DNA of 32,339 bases from Planctomicrobium piriforme (GTDB lineage Bacteria > Planctomycetota > Planctomycetia > Pirellulales > UBA1268): assembly GCA_945869735.1 (NCBI GenBank), contig CAMBPQ010000032.1, forward strand, positions 1 through 32,339, written 5' to 3'. The notes under the pieces were generated by a model. It saw only the letters and a program-made list of their open reading frames with translations. It did no database searches and had not been told where the DNA came from. Positions 3,302 through 26,847 of the stretch are shown here, one piece after another. Position numbers and translations under genes: made by a program. Each line of letters opens with the position of its first letter. Positions within the stretch are counted from its first letter, which is position 1.

Positions 3302-4075
3302 CTAGCGGGCCGGAGGCACGACGTGAAGTCTGACGGCCTCGGCGACCGCCCTGGCGATCTCATCGGCCATCCGCTGCTGCTGGGTGATGTCGGCGATCCC
3401 ACTGCTGGAAGCCGCCAACTTGCCGACGACGACATACGGATTGAAGCCAGCCACGGCCGCGACGGGCAATGCCCCAGGCATATTCCGACCCTTGTCGGAT
3501 GTTTCGAGAATGAAGAAGGCCTGGCCGCCCGCCGTCGCGGGATCAGACATCGCCACATCGATGCCGATGCTTTTGTTGCCAACGCCGAAACCGATGACAT
3601 TCCTCGCGGCAGCGTTGCCGTCATCGAGGCCGACCACCTGTCCCCCGAGCCGCCAGCCATCCGCCGGGGGCGGATTGGGGTTGTCCCAAAACACAGCCGG
3701 CCACCCCGCTTGGGCGAGTTCGTCGGCCACCAACTTCGCGATGGAGGTGCCAACCGGGAGACTGCGGTCATTCCCCATGACCATGTCGGCCACGCGGGGC
3801 CTCGCTGCAAACAGCTTTCGCACCGGTCCCTGCGGAATCACCGCGGCTTCGGCCTGCTGCGTCAACGCCTCCTGTAAGCCGGGCTCCATGTCGAAGGGAA
3901 TCACGTAGATTTTCGCCGGAAGTCTCGCGGGCCAGCCCGTCGCTATCGGAACAGCCGCAGACGCCGTGGGATCGAAAACCGACTGCTGCCCATGAGACAC
4001 CGTGGCAGTCAGCCAGAAGACGGCTGCCAGCAGGCAACTCACGGCGTCTCCACACAACCGGATTCCCGATTTCAT
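3302..4075 (-). CDS. Secreted DUF4410-like hypothetical protein
   Basis: The 257-aa protein begins with a signal peptide (MKSGIRLCGD, then a hydrophobic core, with cleavage likely after SHGQ). The mature part holds a stretch from IYVIPFD to the C terminus with a GxGxGN turn (VIGFGVGNKSIGIDV), resembling DUF4410 outer-envelope proteins. The ATG at 4075 is chosen over an upstream ATG at 4093 because it is preceded by GGGAGG five bases away. The pairing with the DUF4239-like gene 43 bases downstream suggests a shared transcript. No enzymatic motif is visible and the role is unknown. Confidence 0.72.
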   Translation of the reverse strand: MKSGIRLCGDAVSCLLAAVFWLTATVSHGQQSVFDPTASAAVPIATGWPARLPAKIYVIPFDMEPGLQEALTQQAEAAVIPQGPVRKLFAARPRVADMVMGNDRSLPVGTSIAKLVADELAQAGWPAVFWDNPNPPPADGWRLGGQVVGLDDGNAAARNVIGFGVGNKSIGIDVAMSDPATAGGQAFFILETSDKGRNMPGALPVAAVAGFNPYVVVGKLAASSSGIADITQQQRMADEIARAVAEAVRLHVVPPAR

Positions 4076-4202
4076 GCACACCTCCCACGCCACGCCGATC
4101 GCGTCCGGGCGGGTTGCCTCCTGAACGACGGGCGGACCTTAGGACGCAGACCGTGCGCACGGAAGCCCACTTTCCCGCGGCACCGTGGCCCTCCGGGCAG
4201 GC

Positions 4203-4946
4203 TCACTGCCCCGAATCGGTGCCGTGGCAGGATGTGTCTTGCAACTCGACGAGCGCATTCGACGCGGCCCGTTGTTCCGCTTCCTTTTTATTGCGGCCCC
4301 AGGCCGGAGCGTAGCGGCGGCTACCGATCTGGGCGGAAACATGAAAACTCTTGCTGTGGTCGGGGCCTGCCTCCTCGATCACCTCATAGGTCGGCGTCAC
4401 CCCGAAATCCCGCTGGGCCCATTGCTGCAACAGCGACTTGTGGTTCGAGCCCATCTCGCCGCTCACCACCTTCCCGATCTCGGGCTCGAGCATCCGTGCC
4501 ACGAGGGGTCTCACGGCCTCGATGCCACCGTCGAGATAGATCGCTGCCACGAGTGACTCGAACAGATCGGAGAGCACCGACGGCGGCACGGACCGGTTGT
4601 TCACCGACAGTCCCTTGCCCACGATCAGGAAATCGACGAGCTGCAGTTGCTCGCTGAGCCGGCTGCACGTCTCGCGGCTGACGACCACCGACTTGATCCG
4701 CGTGAGGTCCCCCTCGAGCGAATCAGGAAACAGCCGGTAGAGCGTCTCGCAGACGAGAAACCCCAGAATGGCATCGCCGAGAAACTCGAGCCGCTCGTTG
4801 GAGGCCAGGCGGTGCTGGGCCCCGGAGGCGTGGGTCAGAGAGGACACCAACAGGGCGGGGTCACGAAACACGTATCCGATCCGGCGCTGGCACTCTGCCA
4901 CGTCAACGCCGGCCTCGGTTGGTCCCCGATGCTCCTGTCCCGCCAT
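4203..4946 (-). CDS. rnc: Ribonuclease III
   Basis: This 247-aa protein has the two-domain layout of bacterial RNase III. The nuclease domain carries the signature NERLEFLGDAI (catalytic Glu and Asp at about residues 54 and 58) and the second acidic pair in SDLFESLVAA (Asp127, Glu130). A double-stranded RNA-binding domain follows from about residue 165 (NHKSLLQQWAQRD) to GRNKKEAEQRAASNAL near the C terminus. The enzyme cleaves double-stranded RNA in rRNA processing and mRNA decay. All catalytic residues are present and length is typical. It is divergent from the HtrA gene, with about 230 bases between, which should hold both promoters. Confidence 0.97.
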   Translation of the reverse strand: MAGQEHRGPTEAGVDVAECQRRIGYVFRDPALLVSSLTHASGAQHRLASNERLEFLGDAILGFLVCETLYRLFPDSLEGDLTRIKSVVVSRETCSRLSEQLQLVDFLIVGKGLSVNNRSVPPSVLSDLFESLVAAIYLDGGIEAVRPLVARMLEPEIGKVVSGEMGSNHKSLLQQWAQRDFGVTPTYEVIEEAGPDHSKSFHVSAQIGSRRYAPAWGRNKKEAEQRAASNALVELQDTSCHGTDSGQ

Positions 4947-5178
4947 GTGAATACCGTCTCTCCGTTCGTCTGCAAAATAGGCCGCTCCCCCTCAATCTGT
5001 CAACGCGATGCACCAGCCTAACCGCTGCCGCGGCCGTGCCACGAACCATCCCGGGGGCTGCTTCGTAGAGACAGGAAACGTGTCGTGTCAGCCGCCGCCG
5101 ACCTCTGGGCCGGCCGGTGTCGTTTGACCGCGGCACGCCTACACTTGAAGGTCCGACCGCCCCTCCACAGGTGTTTTT
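4947..5178. promoter_or_regulatory. Divergent intergenic region between rnc and htrA-like gene
   Basis: This 232-bp spacer separates two divergently transcribed genes and must hold the promoter of the HtrA gene and probably that of rnc. I see no confident -35/-10 pair, operator palindrome or riboswitch in it, so the call rests on gene arrangement only. Confidence 0.4.
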
Positions 5179-17751: not shown

Positions 17752-20454
17752 TCACACGCCGCCGCGGCGGACGCGGTTAGCGCCCGGTGCAGCAGGCAAC
17801 GCGGCCATCCAGTTGGCGCCGTAGACGGCGAACGCCGACGCAGCGGCACTCGCCGATCCCACGTCAGGCATCCCGAATGCCGCCGTTCGACCGCCCGCTG
17901 TGGAGGAGAACGCGAACCGGACCGAATACACGCCCGTCGATGCGTTCCGTCCGGAACCTGCCCGGGTTGGTGAATAGCTGGCGTTTCCAAATCCGGAAAT
18001 CCCCACGTAGAAAGTCCCGGCAGCCGCCGCACGATACGAGAGATAACTGTCGGCGGAACCGCCGGAGTCGTCGTTCCTGGTGACCTGCTGCCCGGACGCG
18101 TTGAAGAGACGCACGTAACTGTCGAGCGTTGAGCCTCCGGAGAGCGAGGCCGCGTCGATGTCGATCACGAGCGTCTGGCCGGCGGCAAGCCTGACTCGAT
18201 ACATGTCGACGTCGCGGGCCGCGGAGGAGCCGTCACCGATCCGGCCCGAGAGCCGCAGTTCGCCCGACGTAGCCGACACCACCGCTGCCAACCGCAATGT
18301 ATCGCCAGCATCGACGATCGCGGCCGCCTGCGTCACCCACGTATCGGAGGCCGACGCTGCGAGGCCCACGCCACCCACGATCGACGCGATCCCACTTCCC
18401 GCCGCCACGACGGTGAGTACGTAGGTGCCCGCCGTGGTCGTCGCCGTAGCCAGTCCGTTGACCGTCCAGCGCACGTTGTCGGTCGTCGAAACCGTCACCC
18501 CGTCGAGCGACACGGCGAATCCGCCTCGGGTCAGCGACAGGTCAGCGGCGTCGAATCCAGCCACGGCTACGCTGAACTGCACCACGACGGCGGAGACGGC
18601 CGTCGTCCGCGGATCTGGGGAGACATCAATCACGTCCGCCACCGGGGTGAGAACCGGGGCCGCAGTCACTCCGACGGTGAGCGTGTAATCGCCGGTTGTC
18701 TGAGCCAGGGAGCCACTGCCGGCCGCCGTGGGCGAGTAAGAGGAGTTGCCGTACGCCGAGATCCCCACGTAGTAGGTGCCCGAGGCCGACGCCGTGTAAG
18801 TCGCAAGGCTGTCGTACGACCCGCCCGAGTCGTCGCTGAATGCGACCTGCGTGCCCGCGGCGTTGAAGATCCGCACGTACGAGTCGAGCGCCGATGGCGT
18901 CGCCAGCGTCGCCGCGTCGATGTCAACAGTCAGCGTCTCCCCGGCTGCCAGAGCGATCACATAGAAATCGACGTCGGCGGCGCCGTAGGCACCATCACCC
19001 ACCACGCCGCTCGCCCTGGCCGCGCCACTCACCAGCGCGAGAGCCGTCGCTGTTGCTTGCGAATCGTTGGGCTCATCTGGGTCTGTCGGAGTGGGCGGAG
19101 GAGCTGGCGGCTCCGGAGGGGTGACCGAGCCGATCGCGTCCAAGGCTGCGCGGGCGTTGATCAGCCCGCCGGTCGCGACCCTTCCCGCAAGGCTCGACAC
19201 GGGCACCGCCGTGGAGAGGATCGACGAGCGGATCTGCGCCGCCGTTGCCTCCGGATTCGCGGCGGCGAGCAGCGCGACGAGGCCGGCTACGTGGGGCGTG
19301 GCCATCGAGGTGCCGCTGTACGACGAATAGCTGTTGTTGGGCGTCGTGGAGGTGATGCTCACCCCCGGCGCCGCAACGTCGACTGTCGTCGCACCGTAGC
19401 TGGAAAACGACGCCAGCCGGTTCGACGAGTCGGTTGCGGCCACCGAGATGCTCGCGTAGTTGGCCGGATAGGAGGCCGAGCTGTCGTTGTTGTTCGCCTC
19501 GTTGCCCGCCGCGGCGATAAAGAGGATGCCCGCCCCTTCGCCCGCCGCGATCGCGTCGCGAAGCGCTGTCGAGGGGCCGCCGCCGCCCCAGCTGTTGTTG
19601 GTCGCGACGATGTTGATCCCGAAGTCACGCCGCATCCGCGTGGCGTAGTTGACAGCGGCGATCGCGGCGCTGGTCGTGCCGCTGCCGTCGGCTCCAAGGA
19701 ACTTAAGCCCGATCATCGACACCTGCCAATTGACGCCCGCCACGCCAACGCCGTTGTTGCCCACGGCGCCAATCGTGCCGGCCACGTGCGTGCCATGCCC
19801 CTGGTCGTCGAAGGGATCGGCGTCGTTGTTGGCGAAGTCCCAGCCGTTGACGTCGTCGATGAAGCCGTTGCCGTCGTTGTCGATGCGGTCGCCGGCCACC
19901 TCGCCGGGATTCTGCCAGATGTTGGCCGCGAGGTCGGCATGCCGGTAGTCGATGCCGGTGTCGATGATGGCAACGACGACCGATCGCGACCCAGTGGCCA
20001 CGTCCCACGCCTCCGGCGCATCGATGTCGGCGTCGGCGACACCACCGGTCTGGGCGGTGTTGTTGAGCCCCCAGAGTTGCCGTAGCGAAGGGTCGTTGGG
20101 CGTGGCCGAGGTCGTGATCACCGCGTCGGGCTCGACGTATCGTACGCCGGCGGTCGATGTCGCCCAGGCACTCACATCGGCGGCCGAAACCCCAGGTGCC
20201 ATCATAGAAAAGAAGCCCTGCCCGAGCGGCGCCGCGGTCCACCCGGCACGAATGCCCACGACCGGAGTGTCAACGCTCACGATCCACGCATCGGCGCGGG
20301 CAGTGACCGGGGTGCCGTTCCAGACGAGCTCCCTGACCGCCGCGGCTGCCGACCCGAGATCGGCCGTCAGCATGGCCCGCGGCTCGAGTCTTTCCGCGAC
20401 GAGTTGTGCGGGAGCACGACGGTTGGGGCGGTGGTGACGAGCCTGACGATTCAT
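17752..20454 (-). CDS. Secreted subtilisin-like (S8) protease with two PPC domains
   Basis: The 900-aa protein starts with a basic stretch and AERLEPRAMLTAD, an N-terminal motif common on large planctomycete exported proteins. The S8 domain has Asp in VVAIIDTGIDYRHADL, His in DQGHGTHVAGTIG and Ser in YSGTSMATPHVAG, so the triad is complete. A Pro-rich linker (PPEPPAPPPTPTDPDEPND) leads to a first pre-peptidase C-terminal (PPC) domain (VDFYVIALAAGETL ... YYVGISAYGNSSY). A bacterial Ig-like segment (VADVIDVSPDPR ...) and a second PPC domain (VDMYRVRLAAGQTL ... FYVGISGFGNASY) follow. The start ATG at 20454 has AGGA seven bases upstream. It probably acts outside the cell on proteins or peptides. 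The two PPC copies are clearly related and likely arose by duplication. Confidence 0.94.
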   Translation of the reverse strand: MNRQARHHRPNRRAPAQLVAERLEPRAMLTADLGSAAAAVRELVWNGTPVTARADAWIVSVDTPVVGIRAGWTAAPLGQGFFSMMAPGVSAADVSAWATSTAGVRYVEPDAVITTSATPNDPSLRQLWGLNNTAQTGGVADADIDAPEAWDVATGSRSVVVAIIDTGIDYRHADLAANIWQNPGEVAGDRIDNDGNGFIDDVNGWDFANNDADPFDDQGHGTHVAGTIGAVGNNGVGVAGVNWQVSMIGLKFLGADGSGTTSAAIAAVNYATRMRRDFGINIVATNNSWGGGGPSTALRDAIAAGEGAGILFIAAAGNEANNNDSSASYPANYASISVAATDSSNRLASFSSYGATTVDVAAPGVSITSTTPNNSYSSYSGTSMATPHVAGLVALLAAANPEATAAQIRSSILSTAVPVSSLAGRVATGGLINARAALDAIGSVTPPEPPAPPPTPTDPDEPNDSQATATALALVSGAARASGVVGDGAYGAADVDFYVIALAAGETLTVDIDAATLATPSALDSYVRIFNAAGTQVAFSDDSGGSYDSLATYTASASGTYYVGISAYGNSSYSPTAAGSGSLAQTTGDYTLTVGVTAAPVLTPVADVIDVSPDPRTTAVSAVVVQFSVAVAGFDAADLSLTRGGFAVSLDGVTVSTTDNVRWTVNGLATATTTAGTYVLTVVAAGSGIASIVGGVGLAASASDTWVTQAAAIVDAGDTLRLAAVVSATSGELRLSGRIGDGSSAARDVDMYRVRLAAGQTLVIDIDAASLSGGSTLDSYVRLFNASGQQVTRNDDSGGSADSYLSYRAAAAGTFYVGISGFGNASYSPTRAGSGRNASTGVYSVRFAFSSTAGGRTAAFGMPDVGSASAAASAFAVYGANWMAALPAAPGANRVRRGGV

Positions 20455-25238: not shown

Positions 25239-25961
25239 TCAGCCGAACCGCGGCCCCGATCCGACGCGGCGGCGGAGACGCCTCGAAGTCTTCCGCCGCC
25301 GTGGCTGGCTCGATCTCGCCATGACCGTCGGCTCCGCGTCGAGCGGCTCGACGAACAACAGGCCGTGCACGCGATACTCGCGGCCCGTGCCGCACTCGAA
25401 ACACTTCCGCCGCGTTCGCACCTGCCGGTCGGCCCGGAACGCCTGGCCCCCTTCGACCCGGAAAAACGCCCCCTCGACGAGATCCTCCACACGCACTCGA
25501 CCGGGAGGCGGCTCGTCATAGCGGGCCAGCGCCAGTGCGAGCCCCCGATCGCTGCACGTGGCCGCCAAAGGGTTGCGCATCGACCGCGCGAGGGCGGCGG
25601 CGAGTTCGTCGGGCAACACGCCCGCCCCCACGACCGGCGCCAGGATGGCCTCGAACTCCCGCTTCCATTCCGGGCCGTGAGGCCGCACCCGCCGCCGCGG
25701 CCGATGCCGCTCCCAGGTTGCCGCATGGGCCACCTCGTGGAGCAGCGTGGTCAAAAACGCATAGGGATTGAGGTTGGCGTTGATCGAGATCCGGTGCGCC
25801 GTCCACCCCGTCGCGGGCGGTCGGTGATCACCGAGCTTCGTCCGTCGCGGCCGCGCGATCCGCACGTGCAGGTCGTAGCCGGCGAGCAGCAGCTCCACGT
25901 GGGCGACCGCCGCTGGCGGTAGAAACGGACGCACGACGATCACGGGGGAGGCGTTGCCCAC
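25239..25961 (-). CDS. SprT-like zinc metallopeptidase-fold protein
   Basis: The 240-aa protein shows the SprT pattern: KLGDHRPP, ISINANLNPYAFLTTLL and the zinc motif LLHEVAHAAT (HEXXH with catalytic Glu), followed by HGPEWKREF, where the third His is expected. Near residue 185-200 there is one CxxC (RKCFECG), so the usual second Cys pair of the zinc ribbon is missing or altered. The C terminus is Arg/Lys-rich (SSQPRRRKTSRRLRRR). The start is GTG at 25961, four bases after the stop of the upstream emfourin-fusion gene. SprT proteins include DNA-protein crosslink proteases and proteins of unknown role; substrate here is unknown. Confidence 0.85.
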   Translation of the reverse strand: MGNASPVIVVRPFLPPAAVAHVELLLAGYDLHVRIARPRRTKLGDHRPPATGWTAHRISINANLNPYAFLTTLLHEVAHAATWERHRPRRRVRPHGPEWKREFEAILAPVVGAGVLPDELAAALARSMRNPLAATCSDRGLALALARYDEPPPGRVRVEDLVEGAFFRVEGGQAFRADRQVRTRRKCFECGTGREYRVHGLLFVEPLDAEPTVMARSSQPRRRKTSRRLRRRVGSGPRFG

Positions 25962-25965
25962 GCGG

Positions 25966-26847
25966 TCACTCCACTGCCGGGGGAATGCGGAGCGTCGGCA
26001 CCTCGTCGGCGGCGACCTCGTGGGTCGTGAAGAAGTGCTCGACCGCCCGCACCTCCGCCGCGGTGGGCGGCGGCGGCGTCTCGTCGTGCACCACGCGCTC
26101 CGCCTCGGGTCGGCCAGCCACGATGCTCGTCCGCTCCTCGACCCGCCAGCGCGGCCCGAAGTGAAAGACGGCGTAATACATCGTGTTGGCCTTCACCGGC
26201 CCCACGCCGCCGCATCGGGTGGCGTCGAAAAACATCCGGTGCACGGCCTGCCACGGCCGGTCGCGCGCCTCGCAGGCGACGTCGTGAATGACCGACGCGT
26301 TGCGGAAGCGGCCCTCGAACGGCCCGCCGATCAGCGACCAGAAGGCCCGCGGGATGCTCGCGCCGTTCACGACCACGCCCGCAGGCGCGTCCCAGCGCAC
26401 ATCCTGCGGATCGACGTAGGCGAAGGGCTCCACGAGCGTCATGTCGCGGCCGTCGTCGCCCCACTTTGCGACCACGTCGCCGATGAACCGGCCCCACGTG
26501 GCGGCGGCGGACGCGGCGTGCTCTCCCGGCGCGTCGGGCAGCGTGAAACTCAGCGACTGCGGCACGGCCCGCTTCGCGAGGAAACCGACGAGCGGCCGCG
26601 CGGGATCGGGAAGGGAGGCGTCGTCGCACGACACCCGCACCAGCCGCGTCGCCCACTCGATCGCGAGGTCGTAGTGCTGGAGGTCGCGGCCGGTCGGCGA
26701 AAAACGCTCGAACGATTCGGTCAGCCCGCTGGCCTCCACCAGGTGCTCCACGTCGCCGCGGTCCACGGCCGGGAGCGTCGCCGTGTCGAGACGGCAGCCC
26801 CGGATGCTCCCCACGAAGCCGCCTGAGAGAATGAACGTGATCCGCAT
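25966..26847 (-). CDS. Emfourin-like protease-inhibitor domain fused to DUF1353
   Basis: The 293-aa protein has two parts. Residues 1 to about 97 match emfourin: MRITFILSGGFVGSIRG with the SGGF-G turn, LDTATLP and a closing RPLVGFLAKRA. Emfourin is known as an inhibitor of the M4 metalloprotease protealysin. Residues about 140-250 match DUF1353, a phage- and bacteria-associated family: NGASIPRAFWSLIGGPFEGR, VIHDVACEARDRPWQAVHRM and FHFGPRW. I start at the ATG at 26847; the frame extends to 26883 but without a better start. The gene ends four bases before the SprT-like gene start, so the two are almost certainly one operon. The function of the fusion is not known. Confidence 0.82.
   Translation of the reverse strand: MRITFILSGGFVGSIRGCRLDTATLPAVDRGDVEHLVEASGLTESFERFSPTGRDLQHYDLAIEWATRLVRVSCDDASLPDPARPLVGFLAKRAVPQSLSFTLPDAPGEHAASAAATWGRFIGDVVAKWGDDGRDMTLVEPFAYVDPQDVRWDAPAGVVVNGASIPRAFWSLIGGPFEGRFRNASVIHDVACEARDRPWQAVHRMFFDATRCGGVGPVKANTMYYAVFHFGPRWRVEERTSIVAGRPEAERVVHDETPPPPTAAEVRAVEHFFTTHEVAADEVPTLRIPPAVE

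Follow-up and report, generated by a model that had tools for sequence, protein, structure and literature searches.

The window, by which we mean the whole stretch of 32,339 nucleotides analysed here, comes from a lake planctomycete and carries on its minus strand (contig C32 of the source genome) a gene that joins an emfourin domain to a DUF1353 domain. The fusion gene occupies positions 25966 to 26847 and encodes 293 aa from an ATG at 26847 (MRITF); this start is favoured over ATGs further upstream because orthologues of the fusion begin there. Residues 1-97 (26557-26847) form the emfourin domain, on the evidence of Pfam PF20242, alignments and comparison with PDB 6zyg, and residues 114-259 (26071-26508; Pfam core 136-227) form the DUF1353 domain, PF07087. 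The linker between them (residues 98-113; 26509-26556) varies in length. In the AlphaFold2 model of the fusion (mean pLDDT 83) confidence breaks within this linker, falling below 50 at residues 98-112; a flexible connection between the two domains is therefore probable. As the first-pass annotation had reported, the gene ends exactly four bases (25962-25965) before the GTG start of a gene with a HEVAH motif, and the translations are equally exact. This neighbour (25239-25961, minus strand; 240 aa; HEVAH at residues 75-79, positions 25725-25739) matches the SprT-like metallopeptidase family PF10263 at 32.4 bits against a cut-off of 25.6. The window also holds, at 17755-20454 on the same strand, a subtilase-family protease with pre-peptidase C-terminal domains that is unrelated to the fusion.

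The fusion is no sequencing artefact, since 16 genomes of the window's genus have it as an uninterrupted frame, with identities of 57-79% for the other 15. These are 16 of the 19 genomes in the genus that carry this DUF1353; the remaining three are G332, where emfourin and DUF1353 are separate, overlapping genes, G331, with a divergent copy whose frame ends early, and G344, in which no emfourin is seen. In G331 (L080, contig C225) both the M4 protease gene, with two internal stops, and emfourin-DUF1353 look degraded, for which a poor assembly is a possible cause. The named relatives are metagenome-assembled Planctomycetia, several of them from lakes. No fusion was found outside the family in the class sample of 297 genomes, and in the phylum sample of 392 genomes it was found in the source genome only. 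Literature searches on emfourin and DUF1353, with subscription journals largely outside their coverage, returned no paper describing the fusion.

The identity of the N-terminal domain rests chiefly on its sequence profile. PF20242 matches residues 8-90 with a score of 49 bits, where the curated cut-off is 27. This bears out the emfourin domain proposed in the first-pass annotation; the SGGF motif lies at residues 8-11 and Leu25 is nearly invariant in the alignments. The structural comparison is more equivocal: modelled residues 1-90 align with the solved emfourin 6zyg over 82 residues (Z 5.1, rmsd 5.1), but unrelated Mago proteins reach Z 7.7, and the match to 6zyg therefore backs the assignment without proving it, leaving the profile as the stronger evidence. 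A profile match from the emfourin domain to 6zyg gave 16.3 bits (E 0.099), and searches of PDB sequences with single proteins and small alignments gave a significant match for neither the fusion nor the SprT-like gene. Emfourin is an inhibitor of protealysin and thermolysin that binds protealysin 1:1 at the active site and is encoded in the protealysin operon (PMC9505478). The window's domain resembles emfourin (M4in) of the Serratia proteamaculans protealysin operon (6zyg) in scoring above the PF20242 cut-off, in a modelled fold that can be aligned with 6zyg, and in that an M4 protease gene adjoins emfourin in most relatives; it differs in being fused to DUF1353 and in lying away from its likely protease gene.

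A candidate target is present in the same cell. Whole-genome scans of the source genome found a single emfourin, that of the fusion, and a single M4 protease, located by an M4_C scan on the minus strand of contig C48 at about 3954-4994. This protease scores 158.6 bits for M4 and 96.8 bits for M4_C and has an intact active site; all 38 M4 orthologues retain HELTH and the downstream Glu. It resembles protealysin-like M4 proteases (PLN_propep plus M4) in its M4 and M4_C domains, its short IPPYM-type propeptide (here IVPPYM) and the lack of a signal peptide evident by eye. It departs from them in that the propeptide model PF16485 stays below its cut-off of 28.1 (13.9 and 17.6 bits) and in being unlinked from the inhibitor in the window's genus. 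Divergently upstream of M4 in nearly every genus lies a protein of about 1125-1150 residues without a Pfam match (L150:5155-8529 on C48 in the source genome). This neighbour was found in 43 of 72 family genomes, and was set aside as a further part of the system because some of these lack M4.

Across the family sample of 72 genomes, emfourin and M4 tend to occur together: 30 genomes have both, 33 neither, five emfourin only and four M4 only, such that 63 of 72 are concordant (Fisher 9e-11, with kinship among genomes ignored). The pattern recurs within genus g159 alone, where both are present in five genomes and both absent from seven. In two of the four genomes scored as M4 only, the contig ends within about 170 bases past M4, in one case inside an emfourin start. 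The DUF1353 of the fusion type is distributed in a similar manner with respect to M4 (23 both, 3 and 11 discordant, 35 neither). In genus g157 (L085-L089) emfourin has neither M4 nor DUF1353 beside it in five of five genomes; M4 lies elsewhere in two and was not detected in three.

Gene order points in the same direction as co-occurrence. In genera g2, g3, g5, g156, g159 and g161, as well as in six genomes from other families, the gene immediately upstream of emfourin is M4. Three of these genera (g2, g3 and g161) have M4, emfourin and DUF1353 consecutively, with emfourin and DUF1353 as separate neighbouring genes. Genome G346 extends this run on one contig to M4-emfourin-DUF1353-SprT. The source genome lacks the emfourin-M4 adjacency seen in other genera, and M4 in the window's genus lies at least 5 kb from the fusion, on other contigs in most genomes; in G326 the intervening 5 kb hold a histidine kinase and a SpoU methylase, and in G332 M4 is about 18 kb away. 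The simplest history would start from a block of M4, emfourin, DUF1353 and SprT, with a break separating M4 from the rest and a fusion joining emfourin to DUF1353.

Taken together, we propose, with a probability of roughly two in three, that the fusion protein inhibits, in trans, the M4 protease of its own cell, carries a divergent lipase-like domain and was born from the fusion of neighbouring genes. The N-terminal emfourin domain would bind and block the active site of the protealysin-like protease encoded on contig C48, acting in trans and inside the cell, while the C-terminal DUF1353 domain would be a divergent phospholipase-A2-like module held on a flexible linker; the parts may be jointly regulated. 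From an ancestral run of M4, emfourin and DUF1353, the adjacent emfourin and DUF1353 genes would have fused, and insertions and rearrangement would have parted the M4 gene from them, leaving the fusion beside the SprT-like gene that had formerly lain downstream.

As for DUF1353, the first-pass annotation had correctly placed this module downstream of emfourin (Pfam score 74 bits at residues 136-227 against a cut-off of 22.5), and the domain modelled alone reaches pLDDT 92. Its description there as a module of unknown role is outdated, as the Salmonella DUF1353 member TtaP is a phospholipase A2 with catalytic H70, D71 and D85, of which the D85A mutant is inactive (PMC11525133), though the window's clade is without one of these catalytic residues. 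The equivalents of His70-Asp71, His188-Asp189 (26281-26286, minus strand), are invariant, as they are in all 81 aligned DUF1353 sequences (80 viral relatives and the window protein). Asp85 is replaced by His203 (26239-26241, minus strand), 15 residues past the His of the pair; all close planctomycete members share this His, and in the same alignment the position holds His in 21 of 81 sequences and Asp in 30. This substitution sets the clade apart as a distinct subfamily whose chemistry is putative, and by sequence we would regard the domain as a divergent, phospholipase-A2-like module with putative lipid activity. Compared with TtaP (PMC11525133), the window protein belongs to the same Pfam family and keeps the His-Asp pair; unlike TtaP, it has His for Asp85, is fused to an inhibitor and is without a link to a toxin islet. 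When the DUF1353 model alone was compared with solved structures (Foldseek, VIA-align), the best Z was 2.8 and no group XIV or other phospholipase A2 chain was among the matches listed; the domain may nonetheless have that fold. The viral proteins (L182-L261) fall into subgroups according to whether the catalytic Asp position holds Asp, His or Ala, and one relative, L197, has an apparent signal peptide on a contig classed as viral; the viral scans found DUF1353 relatives only, with neither emfourin nor M4 beside them.

It is conceivable, at somewhat less than even odds, that emfourin inhibits M4 as proposed and DUF1353 has lost its phospholipase chemistry to serve a non-catalytic role, for example by binding a membrane or lipid and so anchoring the inhibitor in place. 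The rivalry extends only to what DUF1353 does; on the target, this alternative overlaps with our preferred reading. The replacement of Asp85 in the clade speaks for it, given the inactive D85A mutant of TtaP; the strict retention of His188-Asp189 and His203, which extends to one group of phage members, suggests instead a retained function that needs these side chains.

Rather unlikely, in our estimation, is that the fusion and its adjacency to SprT are a neutral outcome of genome rearrangement, with each part working alone. Such an outcome would be in keeping with the sister genus, where emfourin and DUF1353 are separate, overlapping or close genes, as in G332, and with G344, which keeps M4 and DUF1353 with no emfourin seen upstream of the latter. 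It fits poorly with a fusion frame held open across genomes as divergent as those described above, and with the tie between this DUF1353 type and M4 in the family.

Returning to the target of the preferred reading, an M4 protease, the neighbouring metallopeptidase must also be considered, as the first-pass annotation had paired the inhibitor with this different protease fold. The SprT-like orthologues share with their family (PF10263) the HExxH motif and a later His in a downstream HG..W motif; unlike that family, they do not conserve the CxxC zinc ribbon. Among the 19 genomes of the genus with this DUF1353, 17 have the gene downstream of the fusion or DUF1353 on the same strand, with gaps mostly below about 110 bases, and the order recurs with a wider gap in four sister-genus genomes, so that the two genes are not separated in most relatives within the genus and fusion and SprT are likely co-transcribed there. 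Re-targeting of the emfourin domain to SprT could draw on this adjacency and on a mirror-tree comparison of 17 genomes, in which the partial distance correlation with emfourin is 0.47 for SprT against 0.18 for M4, a lean towards SprT that is not decisive. Against it, the proposed survey of co-occurrence shows SprT in 59 of 72 family genomes irrespective of emfourin (p = 0.06), many of them without emfourin, M4 or DUF1353, and it is M4 that emfourin follows across the family; the fusion genomes, the source genome among them, still encode an M4 whose active site is intact. Moreover, SprT adjoins emfourin-DUF1353 in two genera only, G194 and G275 keep the fusion intact with SprT on another contig, and the genes flanking SprT are shared with genomes that have no emfourin at that place; on the history proposed above it would be a bystander by position. 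The adjacency finds a positional explanation in the order in G346, where the M4-emfourin-DUF1353 run continues into SprT. SprT is a family-wide gene and probably a bystander to the fusion. It was dropped as the first-choice target on co-occurrence and gene order and retained as an improbable yet live lesser rival, because of the distance correlation and of three g157 genomes (one 96% complete) with emfourin in which M4 was not detected. Of the idea of a new metallopeptidase-inhibitor module, the components are borne out, emfourin, DUF1353 and the SprT neighbour all being real; the pairing with SprT is not supported. Less probable still is a protease-gated lipase, in which M4 escaping inhibition would cut the linker at residues 98-113 and free DUF1353 to act on membranes, so that one switch would join protease control and membrane damage.

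These findings connect the emfourin inhibitors and the lipase-like DUF1353 proteins, both little-studied families, with a single M4 protease system, at first through gene neighbourhood and later through fusion, and so provide a concrete lead on the role of DUF1353 in bacterial genomes. They also bear on how inhibitors are assigned to targets: with the inhibitor gene lying away from its likely protease, a guess from its neighbours would pick the wrong one.
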